Origin: Pelagophyceae sp. CCMP2097
Taxonomy: Eukaryota; Sar; Pelagophyceae
Direction of reading: 5' to 3'
Length of the DNA stretch: 34,319 nt
NCBI GenBank assembly: GCA_026770575.1
Contig: MU657174.1
Coordinates: forward strand, 726,738 to 761,056
Part shown: positions 24,205 to 34,319 of the stretch, piece after piece
Layout of the letters: each line of letters begins with the position of its first letter
Position numbering within the stretch: the stretch's first letter is position 1
Notes under the pieces: model-generated
What the model was told of the DNA's origin: nothing
The model's database searches: none
Seen by the model: only the letters and a program-made list of their open reading frames with translations
Translations under genes and position numbers: made by a program

Positions 24205-26579
24205 ATGTGGGCCCCGGCGTGGCTGCGGCGCGCGCTGCTGCTGGCCTGGCTGGCGAGCGCCGCCGGTCGCGACATGAACTACGACGAAATGTCGACGGCG
24301 CTTTTCGCCCTCGCGCGCGACCACCCGAGGTGCGACGCCCGTTCGGCCGGCGCGGCTCGTCGGCTTGTCGGCGACGGCGGGCCCAGGTACGCGCGCGTGT
24401 TCTCGGCCAACGAGGCGTACAAGATAAAACCTGCGGCGGGCGGCTGCGGCCTGCGCAACAGGTGCGCATCCGACGCGCCGCGCGGCATCCGACGCTTCCG
24501 CGCGCGCCAGGCCCTGCGAGCAGCTCGTCGTCGTCGTGTCGCACTTTCCGTCGCTGCCGCAAAACTTTGCAGACGCCGGCACGGCCAGGTGCGTCATAGG
24601 AATCGCAGCGAGGTCCCTCGACGGCCGTCCCCCGACGCGGCGCTATAGGCACGAGGCGCAAGAGGAGCGCGCCACGGTGGGCCAGCGGGAGTCAGCGACG
24701 CGGCCGCACGTTTTTGTCTCGGGCGCACTCCACGGCGACGAGCGCGTCGGGCCGCTGGCGACGCTGTGGGGCCTCGAGATTTTGGTCCACGCGGCCGCGT
24801 GCACGGACGCGGGCCACGCCGCGGCGGAGTGTCCGTTCTTCTCTGACGCGGAGCGGCGCGCCGTGTCGCACGGCGGCCGCGCCGCGGCGCGATCGCGCGT
24901 CAAGTGGCTCGCGCGCCTCGTGCGCAGGCGCGTGGTCTACGCCATGCCCATGACCAACGCGCGGGGGTTCTCCACGAACCAGCGCACCGAGAACGGCATC
25001 GACACGAACCGAGACTTCCCCATCGACACCACGCCAACCGCATGCATGCGCTCGGTGAGCCTGCGCCCCCGTCTTGTTGGCGCCTTCCGACGCAGAAGCG
25101 TAGGTGACTGCGCGGTGCGTCAACGAGCTGTGGCGGCGGCACGTTTTTGTCCTGGCGCTGACGTTCCACGGCGGCATGGAGGCCCTCGCCTACGAGTGGG
25201 GCGCCCCGTCGCACAATTCGCCGCGGGGCAACGTGCGCGGCGCGAGAGCCTCGGGCGACACTTCGCCCGACGACGCCTCCCAGCGCACGACGGCCGAGAT
25301 GCTCTCCGCGTACGCGGGCCGCTTCGGCCGCGTGCCAAATTACGCCTCGTCTCGCATGAACAGCATCGTCTACCCGGTGCACGGCGGCATGGAAGACTGG
25401 GCCTACGCAGCCTCGTGGGACAAGCCGTTGAACGTGCGCGGCGGCTGCTCTGTCGAAGGGTACGCCGCGCAACGATCGGCGCAGTACGCCAACGCAACGC
25501 ACCGCGCGTTTATGCTACTCGTCGAAACGTCCAACGCCAAGGGCGGCGCGCCCATGGGCGCGCGGGGCGCGCTCTTCGACGCCGGCGCGGCCGACGCCGG
25601 CCACGCGCCGCGTAACGTTCGCCTCATGCTCGCCGCGCTCGACGTCGTCGAACCCTACGTCCGCTGGCGCCACGCCGACGGCGCGCCGCGCCCCGCAGCC
25701 GGCGAGGCAGGTTCCGCGGCCGCCGGCTGCGTCGGCGCGCTCCCGGGCGCGGGCGCGTGGCTCGTCGATGCGCTCGACCCGGAGCCCGTGCGGCGCCTCG
25801 AGGGAGACGGCGTGCTCCGCGTCGAGGTCGGCGGCGCTTTACACGTCGACGCGGCCAAAATCTCCTGGGGCTGCTGGGACGCCGCCGCCGCGCGGCGCGC
25901 GGCGTGCGCGGGCGCGCGCGGCCTCGCCTCTGCGCCCGGGCCGGGTAGCGCGGTGCCCCTTGTTTTGGCGCAGCTCAATTCGTCGGCGCCGGCGGCCGAC
26001 TCGCCGCAGACGCGGCACGCGCTTATGGGCTTTTTCCCCTACGACGACGCGGCGCAACTCTGCGGGCCCGACGGCCGCGCGTGGGCCGTGGCGCGCGCCA
26101 GCGTCGACGCGGACTGGGGCCGCGTGCCGCGCGCGGGCGCGCAGCCGCCAGGATCGGCGCCGCAGACGCACTTTGCAAACGTCCGGTCCAACGCGGAATG
26201 GGCGCACGCCCACAACGGGCACGTCGTCCTCGGCCGATCAGAGTGGTTCGCCGCGCCTTTGCTGATTGACCTCGGCCGCCGGCCGCCGACCAGGACGCTC
26301 GCCAACGCCGAAACGCCGCGCGTGCTACCGACGCTCGGCCTCGCCGGCGCCGCAGGCGCCGCGGTCAGTCCACTTGTTCCCGCAGGGCGGGGCGGGGCGG
26401 GAGACGCCGCCAGACGCCGCCAGACGTCAGACGCCCGTCTTCGCCGCGACGACGACGCACGCAGGCCACCGCCACAGTCCGCGCGCGGCGCCGAAGGGCC
26501 TCGACGCGCGCCGCGATGCGCGCACACTGAGTGGCCGGCGCCTCGTGACGTCGCACTCGGAACGAAGCCGCCACGATAG
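24205..26579 (+). CDS. Secreted M14-type zinc metallocarboxypeptidase
   Basis: Three exons (24205-24461, 24511-25054 and 25104-26579) join in phase through introns of 49 nt each and give about 758 residues. MWAPAWLRRALLLAWLASAAG is a signal peptide. The M14 zinc site is complete: HGDE (H160, E163) and FHGG (H289). NGIDTNRDFP supplies the Asn-Arg pair for the substrate carboxylate, VHGGMEDWAYAASWD is the usual segment after the active-site Tyr, and LLVETS carries the catalytic Glu (E408). It should remove C-terminal residues from peptides outside the cell or in a vacuole. Some 340 residues follow the catalytic domain: a possible beta-rich domain, then from about 26380 a low-complexity Arg-rich tail that may be intron or UTR, so the true stop may differ. 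The first exon junction (GLRN-RPCEQLVVVV) is well supported by phase. Confidence 0.9.
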
Positions 26580-26865: not shown

Positions 26866-29800
26866 CTAGTCGGCGGCGGCGGTCTCGAGGGTGCTGATCT
26901 GTAATTCGAGCTTTGCCAATTCATTGACAGACTCTTGATACTTGACGTGCCCCGGCCCGAGCGACTTGCGCGCGACCACCGCCCGCGCCACGAGCTTCGC
27001 CGCCTGGCGCAGCATGATCACGCCCGCCTCGCGCGCCGACGCCTGGCCGCGGGACTGCGACACGGCGCGCCGCCGCGACTGCGCTGCGGGGCCCGAGGGC
27101 GGCGCACGGTCGGCGAGGAGGCGCGAGCCCTCCATGCGCATGACGCGCGCGAGGCCCGTATACGCGTGCGCCGTGCGCGGGTGCTCCGCGCCGAGGCGCA
27201 GCGTGTAGAGGTCCATGGCCTGCGTATAAAACGCCCGCGACGCTTCAAACGCGGCGCGCTCAAACGCCAGAGACCCGAGCGACATGGACGCCTGCGCCAG
27301 CTCCAAGCCCTCGGGCGCGAACCTGGCCGCGATGCGGTACGCGGCTGTTAAAGTCTCGTCTGCCAGGTCCCAAAAGTCGTCTTCGGAACGCTCGGCGTCG
27401 GGCCTTGAAGACGGGCCAGAGTACAGCGCCGGCGCCGCCTCCGTATCCACGACGGAGCCCATGGTCTTCATGGAAGAACGTTGCACCTTGCGCATGTCGC
27501 CGGGGCCCGCGGTCCGCTTGCCCAGCGGCACGGTCGCGCCAGCCTTTGCCTGCCTTGCGAGCTCTAAAGCGCATTCCGAGAGGAAAGTACCCTGGCCGTT
27601 CAGCGTCTCGGCCAGCGTCAGCGGCACGTCGCCGAGCTGAGTGAGGTAACCCACGGCGGTGGCGAAGCAGGCCTCTGCGAGCTGGATCGTGAACTTCGAC
27701 TCGAGACCGAATTTGATGTGGTACCACCCCAAATTGCGCAGCGACGTCGCCACGAGCAAAACATCAGCCCTGTCCAGATCGGCTCGGAGCCGAGGCTTGC
27801 GCGGCGAGAGAGCCTGGACGTCGATCTCGTAGCCGCGTAAAACATGGTGCAGAATCGTATTCGAACCTCCACCCAGAGGCGCGCACTCGCCGGCCGCGCG
27901 CGGGAGCGGGGCCATGTCGTATCTCGAATACAGCTCGGACAAGCCGCACAAAAGCGAGAGTGCGATGCGCGGCGGTGGCGGCGGCGGCTCTGCGGCGGCG
28001 GCGCCGGCGAGTCTCGGCGTCACGGCGGCGACGGCGAGTCTGTAAAGTCGTTCGGCCTCTCTGTACGACCCGAGCATCATCTGGTCCGCCGCAGCAAGAG
28101 TACAAAAGTCGACGACCTTGACCCCAGCTGAGAGCGGGTGCGCTCTCGCAAAGTGCACCGCCGCACGCGACCGCAGGTCGACGGCGGTGAGCTGCCAGCA
28201 TTTCAAAACGGCGTCCACGGCCGACACCTCGCGCGCATTCGGCACGGGCGACTTTTCCCGAGATTGCGGTGGCGGCGACTGGCTGCCGAGGGACCGCACC
28301 GATCCAGACGGAGACTCGGATTCCCGGTCCTCGACGCGGCTCAGCAGCTCTTCGCGGTCCAAATCTCGCTTGCGCGAGTGGCACTCCTCGAAGAACTCGC
28401 CGATGGCCAGGTGCGACTCACGCTTTTGCTCCACGAGGATAGTCCCGTAAATGACCTACGACGCAGCGTATACGGCCGTCGACAAGGGCTCAACGACGTA
28501 CCTCGTTGGCCGTCGTCGTCGCGAAGCGGTAGAGGCTGCCGCAGTCGTGCAGCGCCGCGTCGCTCGGGTCGCGCTTCAAAAGGCCCGCGTCGACCTAGGG
28601 TACGAAGGTCTGGGGTTACGCTCTGGGGTTCTCAAGACGCGCGCTCCGTGACGATCTATCCGAGGGCCTCTGCCTCTGCGCCCCGGTCTCTGCTCAGTCG
28701 TTGTCCGGGGTTGTCGGGCGCGGGTTTGCGCGAGTTCTCCGAGCGCCTCGTCGACTCTGAGTCGGAGCACGCCTCTGTAGCAGTGCTTCACTGCTCGGTC
28801 GTGGAAAACGGCACCGAAGCAGGAGGCGAGCTTGGCGAGGGCGGTGGCCTGGAGCGATAAAGCATCGAGACGGTGTGTGACGTTCCCAGCCATTGACGAC
28901 GGTAGTCCAACGCGCATCGCAATCGCGTCGCGCCCGGCACCGGACAAGTCGCCCAAAGCCTCGATGAGCTCGTGCTCGCGCTGGGCCTCGCCGGCGCCGG
29001 CGAAGCGCGTGAACCTCAGCCAAGCCTGCGAGTCTGCGACCGTCACCGCCCAGAGCACCGCATCATCTAACGCGACGACGGTCGCGGCTCTCCGCGCGAC
29101 GGCGCCGCCGATGATGGCCGCCTCGCCGACGACGTCGCCGGTTCGCGAGACGTTGACTTCCACGCCATCGACGGAGCACTCGAGAGACCCGCTGACGACT
29201 ACGTAAAGTAAGTTTGCCTTTTCGCCCTGCGTCATCAGGGCGGTGCCGGCGGTGCAGTCCACGCGCCGCATCGACGAAATGATGGCGTCGACGGCGCACC
29301 GCTCCGGTAAACGCCCGCTCTGCCTGCCCGCGCATGCCAAGAGGGCCTTTGCCACGATCGCTTCGACGGCTTCGCTCATGTCTAGAGGCCGGCACCGCTT
29401 CTCCACAAACTTGCCGCCGTTCGCCAAAGCCGCCGACTCAGCTAATGCAGCCGCCTTGCGCACCTGCAGCGCCAGGCCTAGAAACGCAGGGTATGAAAGT
29501 GGCACTCTGGGATCCTTTGGCGGTGGGACGCGGGCGTTTCACCGTCTGCGAGGGCTCGAAGGCGCATGGGATGGCCGCCGCAGGCGTCTAGGGCGTCGCG
29601 AACGCGGTCGATCTGGACATTGTCTCGGCGGACTTTGAGCCTCGCGCAGATGAGCGAGCACGCGGCATCCGCATTCAAAACCTGAAGCGTCACGGCGAGC
29701 GCCGGCGGCCCTTCGGGCAAACGCAGGTCGTTCTCCGCCTTTGTCCGCGTGGCAGCGGGCGTGGGCCTCGAAGCGAGGATGACGGCGAGGCGCGGGCCGG

Positions 29801-32571
29801 CGACGCGGGCGTTCAAAGATGTCGCTAAAGAGCGAAACAAGTCCCAGCCCTCCACAGACAAGTCCTGCGCGTCGTCCACTAGTAGAACGACGTCTGTGGC
29901 GGCCTGGCAAACTAAAGCTTTGAAAGTCGTCGCGAGGACTTCATTCTCCGGTGCGCGAACGGGAGGCGTCTCCCACATGGAAAGCGCGTCGTCGACCAGC
30001 TCGGCGCCGTGGCGAACAAAGCCCCGGGCGAGGGTGAAAGACTGTTCTCGGAGCCGCGTAGAGTTTATCACCATGGCCCCTCCAAAACCTGAAGACGCCG
30101 ACGCCGACATTGCCAGCTTGCCGCCGCCCTTGGCCTCGGGCGCCGGCTCCGCGTTTTCGGTCCCGGCGCGGAAGCCCGCGCCGGCCTCTCTGTTGAGTTC
30201 CGTGAGCGACGTCACGAGCGTGCGCCACAAGTCATCAGCCTTCGAATCGGCATTGGCGTCGACGACGGTGTGCGTCGCCGAATGCGAAAAGCCGAGCTGC
30301 CGCAGCAGCGCCGTCTTGCCGAGGCCGGCGTCGCCGTCTACGAAAATGAAGAAACAACGGTCGGTGGCATCCGCAATCTTCTCATAGATATCCGCCAGCG
30401 CCGAATCGCGGCCGAAGCACCGCGAGTGGTCCGCCTCATCTTCGGCGTCGTCCACCTCCAAGCGGACGTGCGAGCTCCACCTCGTCTCCGCCGCCGGCGA
30501 CGCGCGGTCCGGCGCGCCTGCGGGAGACCCGGCCACCTCCTCCTGCTTCGTCGCGAAGACGCGCACGGGTTCCGCAAAACCCTTTGCGGAGATGGGCGCG
30601 CGCGCCTCGAAGTGTAAAGTGCCGCCGTCGGCAAACTCGAACGTCGAAGCTCTGGCGCGAGTCGGGCCCGCCCCGTCGCGGTCCACAGCGTCGCGGACAC
30701 GCTCGTCGACCAGGATGCAATCGCCGAGGTTCGGCTGCTTCGACGCCGCCGCCATCAGCCTTGCTGCTAAGTTCACGCTCGGGCCCATGACGGCGTACTC
30801 GCATCTGAACGGAGCCCCAACCAAACCGCAAAACGTCACTCCGACGGTGATGCCGCAATACGCCGCAATGTTCTGCTTCGCCAGGGCGCGCACCAAGGCG
30901 TGCGCATACAGCACCTACAGCGACGCCTCGGAAAAATGAGGCGTGGCCTCAAAAGGGGCCGAATTTAAAATTTCGGCCCTTATTGCTCCATTTTTCCATT
31001 CTCCATTTTTCCATTCAGCGGACGCAGGTGTTCAACGGCGCGGCGCTCGTTGTCCTCGAAGGAGCTGCCCCGGACGCCGAAGCACGTGATTGCGACGCAA
31101 CCCTTATCGTCGACAATGAATTGCCGTACCAAGCCGCCCCGCTTGGCGGCGGCTAATTGCACCGTACCAAAACACTCTTGCACCGTGGCGAGGTCGCCCT
31201 GCCGCAGCGCGGCGGAGAATTCCGTCCCGACGAGGTTTGTGAAGCACGTGGTACACGTTCTTTGCTCGGCCAGGTGCGACTCGAGCACACCAGTCGAAGT
31301 GCGCCGCGCGGCGCCCAAAGCGCCCTCGCCGACGAGCGACTCAATCGCACCGAGGACGGGCGGCAGCGCGAATCCGCGGAGGACGTCTGCGGACTTGTCG
31401 TCTCGCAGTTTGATTGACGTACGGCCGCGCCTTTGCAGATAAAGCACTTGGCCCATGGTCAGCGCCCCGGTGCCCTTTGGAGCGCCGCCCGCGGGGCCCG
31501 CGATGACTAAAGTGCGAGTGGACGAAGCAGCGGACCTCAGCGACTGCAGTTTTGTCGGCGGCACGAGCAAAGTGACGCCGTTGGAGCCGCTCTTTTTAGG
31601 CGGCCCCGTGCGCAGCGGCGGCAGCGACCCGGCGGGCCGCGGCGCTGCCGCGCGCAACGCCGCCGCCTCGTGAATCAGCTCCGTCGCCTCTCGGGATAAA
31701 GACGTCTCGCTGGGCCCTGCGAACGGCTCCGCCAGCCGAATCTGCTCCAGGGGCGCTCCAGCCACGACGAACTCCCACCTATGCGCGTCGCCAACGCGGT
31801 AGACGCACGTGTCGCCGCAGCCGATGGCGCAGTGCATGTTAAGGGTCACGTCGACACTTTCTTCGACGACGCGGTGCTGCGCGCCAGGCGCGTGCTGCAG
31901 CGCCAGCGCGCACCTCGCCGCCCTCTCCACGCACTCCGCCAAACCCGCGCGGTCCTGGGCCACCCAGAGGACGAGCATGGCGTCGCCGGCGTACTTCAAA
32001 ACGTCGCCGTCGTGCGAGACGATGATCTCCACCGCGCGCGTATAGATCCGGTTCATGTGCCGCTGCAGAGCCTCGATGCCTACAAAGCAGCGTCGCGCGC
32101 GGCGCGCCGAACGCGGGGAGGAGAGCCTCTGGCCACAGGGGAGTATAGGCCGCGGGGGCGCCTGGCCTTTTCCTCGTTGCGCATGTGTATCTCACCGAGG
32201 CGCGTGGAGAGCCGGGTGAAGCCTGAGATGTCGACGAAGAGGATGCAGCCGAGGACCTTGTCGACGCAGGGCTCGCGCCACTTCTGGACGGCGTTTCGTC
32301 CGGTGGGTCGGTCCGCCTCGTCCTTGGCAAGCCCGAGATGGACATACCCCGGCGAGAACCGCGCGAGCTCGTTGACGAGGCCGCTGCTGTCTCGGTAGTC
32401 GTCCACCGCCGCGGGCCGCCGCCGCAGCAGCGTGGCCCACGTCGCCGAAAACCAGGCCTTTTTCCCGGGCGCCCGGGCCAGCGCAGGGTCCTGCGAGTGG
32501 CTCGAGTCCGCAGAGTCCGAGCTCGCCACCTTGCCGGTGCCCCTGAGGCTCTGCGCCCGCTGGCGCGCCAT
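26866..32571 (-). CDS. Soluble adenylyl cyclase: C1-C2-NTPase-cNBD-TPR
   Basis: Six exons (32571-32196, 32079-31037, 30914-29543, 29477-28771, 28594-28502, 28455-26866) join in frame and code 1726 residues. C1 has FVDISGFT with D114 and KYAGD with K154 and D158; the two Asp bind catalytic metal. QIRLAE has R240; K154 and R240 align with the bicarbonate-binding Lys and Arg of mammalian sAC. C2 keeps the Asn-Arg pair (N521, R525 in SVNLAAR) used in catalysis. A P-loop NTPase follows (GDAGLGKT at 667-674, VVLLVDD at 815-821). A cNBD spans about 991-1086, with GE at 1048-1049 and an Arg at about 1060 in its phosphate cassette. TPR-like helices fill the rest. Converting ATP to cAMP, probably gated by bicarbonate, is the likely role. 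The donor of intron 2 (GTTGAA) is atypical, and that of intron 4 could instead be at 28755. Confidence 0.88.
30935..31016. repeat. Inverted repeats and short tandem repeat inside a cyclase intron
   Basis: Within the intron that splits the C2 domain (31036-30915) lie TGAGGC-GTG-GCCTCA, then GGGGCCGAA and TTCGGCCC around an AT-rich loop, then two copies of TCCATTTTTCCATT. The block is much richer in A and T than the exons and looks like a small inserted element. Confidence 0.7.
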
Positions 32572-33152: not shown

Positions 33153-34004
33153 TCACGCGTCGTAGAGCTTGGATTCGTCGTGCAAGAACGGCGCGAGGGC
33201 GCAGAGCAGCGCGTGCTCGTAGAGCGCCGTGCGGTCGATGGCGCCGTTGGTGGCTTTGGCCACCGTGCCACCTTTTTGCTTCGAGTTGGAGTCCCCGAAG
33301 ACGATGTCGTCGGCGTCGCCCAACTCCATGGCACCGTGGCCGGCCTCGCCGCCGCGCATGAGGCGTACCACGCGTGGCGGCAGCAAAAACGTCGCCGACC
33401 GCGACGTGCTTAAACGTGCATCGCGCGTCCGGAGGACGGCCATGACAGCAAAGCACTCGACGCCGTCAAAAGCGCCGCCGTCGGCCGCGCAGTCGCCGAC
33501 GCCGCCCTCGAGGCCGACAGAGTAGTCCGCCTCTGCGCCGTCGGCGTGCGCCGCCGCCGCGGCGCGGCACCGCGTCACCGCGCCGCACCGCGTCTCCGCG
33601 TCGCCCCAGGGCTGGTCTTGGACGCCGCTGGCGACTGCGCGCTCGACGACGATGATGGTCAACTCCGGGAACGCGGCGGTGAAGGCGCGGCGCACAGCGT
33701 TGACCTTGACAGGATTCGTCGACCCGACGGCGACGACGATCTCCTTGCCGTCTGAGGAGTGCACCGCCACCTTGGCCTTGCCGTGCTCGTCGAAGCACGC
33801 GCCACCGGTGGATGGCTTGGGCTTCTTCGCCGGCGGAGACGCGGCCGGCGGCGCCGCGGCCGGCTCCGGCTTGGCGTGGTGGGGCGCCGGCGGGGTCAGA
33901 TCGAGGAAGCGGCGCTTTTGGGTCTCGAACTCGGCGAGAGTGAGGATCCCGTTGTCCAGGAGCCTCTTGAGGTGTTCCAGCTGGAACATCGTCGAGGTGT
34001 CCAT
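33153..34004 (-). CDS. Inosine/xanthosine triphosphatase (YjjX/DUF84) with N-terminal SHOCT-like motif
   Basis: The protein has 283 residues from the ATG at 34004; the open frame above it has only a TTG. Residues 1-40 (HLKRLLDNGILTLAEFETQKRRFL) fit the SHOCT helical pair found at protein ends, mostly in bacteria. A Pro/Ala/Lys linker follows. The rest is a complete YjjX-type NTPase: VAVGSTNPVKVNAV, SGVQDQPWGDAETRCGA, ADYSVGLEGGV, ATFLLPPRVVRL, GGTVAKATNGAIDRTALYEHAL. This family hydrolyses ITP and XTP to monophosphates and so keeps damaged purines out of nucleic acids. The linker may place the enzyme in an oligomer through the SHOCT helices. A single exon is enough. Known YjjX proteins are about 170-180 residues, so the N-terminal addition is about 100 residues. 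Confidence 0.9.
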   Translation of the reverse strand: MDTSTMFQLEHLKRLLDNGILTLAEFETQKRRFLDLTPPAPHHAKPEPAAAPPAASPPAKKPKPSTGGACFDEHGKAKVAVHSSDGKEIVVAVGSTNPVKVNAVRRAFTAAFPELTIIVVERAVASGVQDQPWGDAETRCGAVTRCRAAAAAHADGAEADYSVGLEGGVGDCAADGGAFDGVECFAVMAVLRTRDARLSTSRSATFLLPPRVVRLMRGGEAGHGAMELGDADDIVFGDSNSKQKGGTVAKATNGAIDRTALYEHALLCALAPFLHDESKLYDA

Positions 34005-34319
34005 CTGCCCACCACCGCAGCCGGCGAAGCCGGAGTTAGAGCGCGAGGCCGCCAAATTGTATAACGAGGCGCGCGCGGGTTCTAGGAGTCTCGCGAGCTC
34101 GGAGGGGAGACCGAGCTCCCGCGGCGCCGTCGAGATGGCGCCTCGCGTGAGCGCGGCCGTCCTAGGAATTCCTATTGAACAAAAAAACTTGGGATCGCCG
34201 AGAAGCCGAGATGCAAGGTCACGACGCCTTACTGAATTACAATTGCTCTGTAATGCAGTTTGTTTCAGTTGGCTCGTCCGTTGGCTTTTTTCGAGTGCGC
34301 TTACGGGGGTCCTATGATC
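34005..34319. other. Right-edge region upstream of the ITPase gene
   Basis: It should hold the ITPase promoter. It carries CCTAGGAATTCCTA at 34161-34174, the palindrome seen in clusters at 13461-13573, and becomes AT-rich toward the right edge. No exon recognised. Confidence 0.5.

Follow-up and report, generated by a model that had tools for sequence, protein, structure and literature searches.

In human soluble adenylyl cyclase (sAC) a pair of cyclase domains is followed by an NTPase and a TPR region, and to our knowledge this enzyme has no cyclic nucleotide-binding domain (cNBD). In bacteria, cyclases of class III that carry a fused cNBD exist. A survey of cyclic nucleotide-binding (CNB) domains distinguishes 30 families, among them kinases, channels, exchange factors, transcription factors, bacterial AAA-ATPase and histidine-kinase families and two catch-all groups; none of the 30 is described in its table as a cyclase, and the word is absent from the main text (PMC2246266). 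Here we describe a gene on the minus strand of a 34,319-nucleotide stretch of DNA, hereafter the window, from the alga Pelagophyceae sp. CCMP2097 (assembly GCA_026770575.1, contig MU657174.1, positions 726,738 to 761,056). Its product is an sAC-type cyclase that carries a cNBD behind its NTPase. This arrangement is real, is common to two species and occurs in a well-known enzyme family. It is also apparently undescribed so far: the titles and abstract beginnings of the open-licence literature that was searched contain no sAC with such a cNBD, and within that scope the preliminary description of this locus, which knew of no sAC with this order of domains, has held.

The gene and its domain order

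The preliminary description joined six minus-strand exons, and at its sites these indeed yield an open frame of 1726 amino acids, with matching phases and GT-AG borders at all five introns. The same gene is represented publicly by M885DRAFT_612931 (P0001; hypothetical protein, 1739 amino acids, Pelagophyceae sp. CCMP2097), which is identical to that translation except for 13 additional residues, VLRLRVDEALGEL, that close exon 4. P0001 is reproduced exactly once exon 4 is made to end at 28732, and intron 28595-28731 is then of the GC-AG type. Because the 13 residues align without a gap with the homologue from Aureococcus anophagefferens, 28771 is the single splice site most likely to have been wrongly placed; the remaining sites agree with P0001. 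Residue numbers in what follows are those of P0001.

When the protein as first assembled was compared with Pfam, the models Guanylate_cyc (E 6.8e-10), AAA_16 (E 1e-11) and cNMP_binding (E 1.6e-11, residues 1006-1079) scored above their curated cut-offs. TPR_12 reached 26.2 bits (E 9.2e-6) against a cut-off of 30.1, and exon 6 taken alone gave 30.7. The P-loop of the NTPase, GDAGLGKT, starts at residue 667, and the nSTAND6 and nSTAND_NTPase5 models match this region below their cut-offs. The protein thus contains the two class III domains and the P-loop NTPase by which, together with a lack of transmembrane segments, sAC is defined in the account of PMC6660944. The closest solved relative of the first 599 residues is human ADCY10, with which both C1 and C2 align, and structure ranks 1-24 are all human sAC. 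A simple hydropathy scan for transmembrane segments gave a single 19-residue stretch reaching 1.6, located in the core of C2. The original assignment to the sAC type is upheld by the ADCY10 match and by the presence of C1-C2 and AAA_16, and we class the protein in this way by descent and architecture, without a claim that it produces cAMP.

Alignment with relatives that lack a cNBD places the insertion point after the end of the NTPase, at a GG/GNP stretch, and before SSMAGNVTHRLDALSL. The stretch that follows the cNBD is aligned to these relatives directly behind their NTPase and is helical in a model of the protein core; SSMAGNVTHRLDALSL itself aligns with LPDTVQGVIVSRIDRL of the bacterial relative P0007. 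No family model matched this region, and the name winged-helix region, which we use for it, is given by analogy with STAND proteins. Because the insert falls between the NTPase and the winged-helix stretch, the alignment indicates that the cNBD interrupts the control module itself rather than simply preceding the TPRs. The order C1-C2-NTPase-cNBD-TPR that had been proposed is therefore correct in placing the cNBD after the NTPase and incorrect in placing it directly before the TPRs, since by alignment the winged-helix region lies between them.

The cyclic nucleotide-binding domain in two pelagophyte species

An AlphaFold2 (AF2) model of exon 4, built from five sequences with a mean predicted local distance difference test score (pLDDT) of 52.7, has the order of strands and helices of a cNBD, and structure comparison with Foldseek and with VIA-align 2 matched it to this fold. 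A predicted structure lacking the beta roll would have spoken against the preliminary description, but the roll is present in the model. Pfam, the AF2 model, Foldseek and VIA-align 2 all point to a genuine cNBD fold in one chain with the cyclase. The phosphate-binding cassette retains its Gly-Glu and Arg, as had been noticed from the start, and the wider pattern Gly-Glu-x-Ala...Arg is kept as Gly1048, Glu1049, Ala1051 and Arg1060. By the criteria given in PMC10959531, Ala and Arg mark the binding of cyclic nucleotides rather than nucleosides, and both species retain these two residues. In Table 1 of PMC2246266, PKA is listed with RAATV, PKG with RTATV and parasite PKGs with GERALLYDEPRSATIKA. 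The CCMP2097 cassette, GEAAIIGGAVARRAATV, looks PKA-like with two residues added, and that of Aureococcus, GERAMLTNSARTATV, which is of canonical length, looks PKG-like; the two species may thus differ in ligand and in how strongly binding is coupled.

The distribution of the domain was assessed in protein searches that scored only the candidates sharing most words and that listed 120 of 174, 120 of 351 and, in a third search, all 5 matches. Among the 229 proteins from the matches listed, PF00027 appears only for five pelagophyte rows, namely P0001 and, from Aureococcus anophagefferens, P0002 (AURANDRAFT_63788), P0003, P0004 and P0121. The latter four are one protein and its strain copies, and the evidence for the arrangement is of two species, not five. 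A profile made from P0001 and P0002, which matches these by construction, returned the same five with E below 1e-60 and no further match under E 0.1 among the 229 proteins, and a broader profile, to which 16 cNBDs from the alga's own genome had been added, again returned only these five among the matches listed. In the best 79 of at least 520 bacterial loci, 74 of which have a C1 match, the longest open reading frame (ORF) never contained a cNBD (0/79). The broader profile did find cNBDs in separate flanking ORFs at five of these 79 loci, and it is therefore able to detect bacterial cNBDs. The whole-genome collections searched were those of prokaryotes, and pelagophytes and dictyochophytes were covered through the protein database; because the matches listed are a part of the total and may cover few algae, a wider spread of the arrangement is possible. 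Two further relatives, P0122 and P0177, whose aligned parts show 51% and 53% identity with P0002, end short of the cNBD position and are uninformative in this respect.

Between P0001 and P0002 identity amounts to 61% in C1, 64% in C2, 55% in the winged-helix region, 40% in the cNBD and 27% in the NTPase, with 28% and 26% in the linkers that flank the cNBD. A clue to the source of the insert comes from the alga's own genome, in which 53 cNBD matches were found and 30 were taken as loci. Among these 30, the cNBDs closest to the present one are arranged in tandem and some are, by eye, in frame with a kinase-like domain, which suggests that the insert may have derived from a cyclic nucleotide-dependent kinase.

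Some observations on the relatives may be recorded here. P0003, P0004 and P0121 are publicly named cGMP-dependent protein kinase, and there is no kinase among their listed Pfam domains. Three Chloroflexi loci (L042 6529-8280, L043 10302-12038 and L061 10090-11787) each have an ORF of about 570 amino acids with a C-terminal cNBD; these ORFs are alike by eye, and each begins about 1 kb past the sAC-type match on the same strand, a juxtaposition of cNBD and cyclase that is reminiscent of the algal fusion and may be fortuitous. Three contigs with long sAC-type cyclases (L095, L100 and L109) belong to a metagenome-assembled genome whose label, Klebsiella pneumoniae, appears to be wrong. Accessory domains may be frequent gains in sAC-type proteins, because P0067 and P0125 list PF00169 and P0140 lists PF00415, which we take to be PH and RCC1, respectively.

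Catalytic residues, a proposed feedback and its alternatives

By alignment with human sAC, whose catalytic residues have the roles given in PMC12867704 (its Table 1) and PMC12250328, the metal-binding Asp47 and Asp99 correspond to Asp114 and Asp158, and Asn412 and Arg416 are kept in C2 as Asn521 and Arg525. The bicarbonate pair, Lys95/Arg176 in the human enzyme, is matched by Lys154/Arg240. Of the proteins aligned over C1 among the matches listed, 7/224 (P0001 included) have an Arg at the Arg176 site, 5/224 have the complete D-K-D-R set and 24/224 have D-K-D with a gap at the Arg site; P0004 also has the Arg, though it is outside the 7, and P0122 and P0177 have Thr there. According to PMC12867704, few non-mammalian animals possess the pair, most being without one or both residues, and restoring the Arg in sea urchin sAC did not confer sensitivity to bicarbonate. 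For these reasons the algal pair is suggestive of bicarbonate sensing and is not sufficient for it; its presence in a marine alga bears on the rarity reported in that paper.

Computation has shown the gene, its order of domains, the occurrence of the arrangement in both pelagophyte genera, the fold of the cNBD and the retention of the metal-binding residues, of Asn/Arg and of the bicarbonate pair. The explanation that we favor, and to which we would assign an even chance, is that of a single-chain class III cyclase of the sAC type, in which a PKA/PKG-type cNBD has been inserted into a STAND-type module and which is gated by a cyclic nucleotide. The cNBD would bind a cyclic nucleotide, for which the product of the enzyme itself is the simplest candidate, and this binding would shift the winged-helix region and the TPR arm relative to the NTPase. 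The shift would in turn raise or lower cyclase activity, with a sign that cannot be read from the sequence, and bicarbonate is predicted to activate through Lys154/Arg240. The gating nucleotide is probably the enzyme's own product, in other words the gating would be product feedback. In its most complete form, self-sensing, one chain would make a cyclic nucleotide, bind it at the hinge of the switch and also read bicarbonate through the Lys/Arg pair; we regard this as possible although doubtful. If it is true, a photosynthetic alga of the sea integrates signals of inorganic carbon and of messenger level in a single polypeptide, and if it works, it is a feedback circuit made of one protein.

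Several observations weigh against gating of this kind, and some of them raise the alternative that the cNBD is vestigial or purely structural, serving as a spacer or in dimerization or docking, with ligand binding lost. The CCMP2097 cassette exceeds the canonical length by two residues, and given this insertion our preference for Arg1060 over Arg1059 as the phosphate-binding Arg, made because AATV follows it, is a judgement. The position that we take to be that of the coupling glycine, between beta2 and beta3, assigned through RI-alpha numbering, is occupied by Ala1018 in CCMP2097 and by glycine in Aureococcus. This glycine has been tied to the allosteric coupling of CNB domains (PMC2246266). 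The cassette is also the least certain part of the modeled beta roll, with pLDDT <50 at residues 119-129 of the exon-4 model, and in a 1196-residue core model the blocks of the cNBD have pLDDT values of about 32-66, which makes any placement of the domain against the others tentative. In the cyclase domains, the base-recognition residues Lys334 and Thr405 of human sAC are replaced by Gln445 and Ala514, and the pyrophosphate-binding Lys144 by Asn206. To the case for a vestigial domain may be added that between the two species the cNBD has diverged more than C1, C2 and the winged-helix region. It is, however, better conserved than its flanks, the cassette of Aureococcus has the canonical length, and Gly-Glu-x-Ala and Arg are retained in both species. 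We consider loss of ligand binding unlikely.

A different alternative is cross-talk, in which the cNBD would read a nucleotide other than the product, for instance cGMP gating the synthesis of cAMP, or in which the enzyme itself would make cGMP. The Aureococcus cassette, which is close to the parasite PKG sequence and to RTATV, would fit this possibility, but that of CCMP2097 ends in RAATV, the PKA-type consensus (both by Table 1 of PMC2246266). The Gln and Ala at the base-recognition sites and the fact that the Dictyostelium homologue of sAC is a soluble guanylyl cyclase (PMC6660944) argue for this alternative; because of them cAMP is no more than a putative product, and the cyclase activity is a predicted one. 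Yet the Gln says little about this particular enzyme: at the Lys334 site, 49/229 of the relatives among the matches listed have an RQ motif, 86/229 an NK-type motif and the rest neither pattern, so that Gln here is a feature of a large group. Also on the side of cross-talk, a cyclase-family search of the alga's genome, at the threshold used, listed one other place (C66); the present gene was absent from the matches, probably because its exons are split. On balance cross-talk seems to us rather improbable. The remaining alternative, that a cyclase gene has been wrongly joined to an adjacent cNBD gene, draws on the fact that the link between NTPase and cNBD hangs on the splicing of one 65-nucleotide intron (29478-29542). 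However, the same join is present in the separately sequenced Aureococcus genome, and the alignment of P0001 with P0002 runs through it free of gaps. Furthermore, one uninterrupted exon holds the cNBD together with the beginning of the winged-helix region, which in relatives without a cNBD follows the NTPase directly, and the link between these two is therefore independent of splicing. With the public model P0001 and the Aureococcus alignment we reject the joining artefact, which is largely refuted and has become highly improbable, and we retain the gated single-chain cyclase as our preferred explanation.

Surroundings of the gene and comparison with known systems

The features of the gene are collected in Table 1. 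Intron 30915-31036 is 122 nucleotides long, has a GC content of 0.48 and contains two repeats, one inverted and near-perfect, the other short and in tandem. That it might be an introner element was unsupported, as a genome search that skipped simple repeats and very common words matched only the intron itself. An ORF with an NTPase_I-T and SHOCT match lies upstream on the same strand (33153-34319, -) and one with a Peptidase_M14 match downstream on the opposite strand (25104-26579, +), and the gene is therefore situated between separate neighbors; ORFs matching PfkB and ABC1 are found farther away in the window. The segment 20001-22000 has a GC content of 0.42, compared with 0.60-0.73 in the other 2-kb bins, and contains overlapping ORFs on both strands. 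Rfam at gathering scores gave no match within the window.

Table 1. Positions in the window of the cyclase gene, its exons and its encoded domains
Feature	Content	Position	Strand	Basis
Whole gene	six exons encoding the 1739-aa sAC-type cyclase and its cNBD insert, M885DRAFT_612931	26866..32571	-	
Exon 1	start codon (ATG, 32571) and beginning of C1, including metal Asp114	32196..32571	-	
Exon 2	remainder of C1 (Lys154, Asp158, Arg240), linker, beginning of C2 (Gln445)	31037..32079	-	
Exon 3	rest of C2 (Ala514, Asn521, Arg525), NTPase with P-loop GDAGLGKT	29543..30914	-	
Exon 4	linker, cNBD, beginning of winged-helix region; GC donor	28732..29477	-	
Exon 5	winged-helix region, continued	28502..28594	-	
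Exon 6	remainder of winged-helix region, TPRs and stop codon	26866..28455	-	
C1 cyclase domain	residues 101-262; split by intron 32080-32195	31670..32271	-	
C2 cyclase domain	residues 388-600; split by intron 30915-31036	30534..31294	-	
P-loop NTPase (AAA_16) and lid	residues 637-930	29544..30425	-	
cNBD	residues 985-1090; Pfam cNMP_binding core at 29032-29253	28999..29316	-	
Phosphate-binding cassette	GEAAIIGGAVARRAATV, residues 1048-1064	29077..29127	-	
Winged-helix-like part of STAND-type module	residues 1123-1255; two introns	28321..28902	-	alignment, modelled helices
TPR region	residues 1301-1739	26869..28185	-	

As a whole, the algal protein shares parts with several known systems and differs from each. 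Like human ADCY10 (PDB 4clf, 4cm2 and 4usu), it has C1-C2 with the metal Asp residues, Asn/Arg and Lys95/Arg176 in register and an NTPase and TPR region behind the cyclase pair; unlike it, it has Gln and Ala in place of Lys334 and Thr405 and Asn in place of Lys144. The Aureococcus protein P0002 has its cNBD in the same position between the NTPase and the winged-helix region and differs in its canonical, PKG-like cassette, its intact coupling glycine and the longer inserts in its NTPase region. With the bacterial C1-C2-AAA_16-TPR cyclases (for example Acaryochloris P0123 and those of Chloroflexi and Planctomycetes) it has in common the cyclase pair, the NTPase, with many of them also TPRs and, with P0007, an aligned winged-helix stretch, whereas these enzymes, as judged from the loci analyzed above, are without a cNBD in the longest ORF. 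The cNBD resembles CNB-A of human PKG I (7mbj) and Plasmodium PKG (5dyk) in its fold and its Gly-Glu/Arg cassette, but unlike the CNB domains of PKG and PKA it is a single domain in a cyclase, is unaccompanied by a kinase and has two extra cassette residues. Finally, the sAC of mouse sperm is coupled in function to another protein that has a cNBD, the exchanger sNHE (PMC6660944), whereas in the algal protein the putative sensor is on the same chain.
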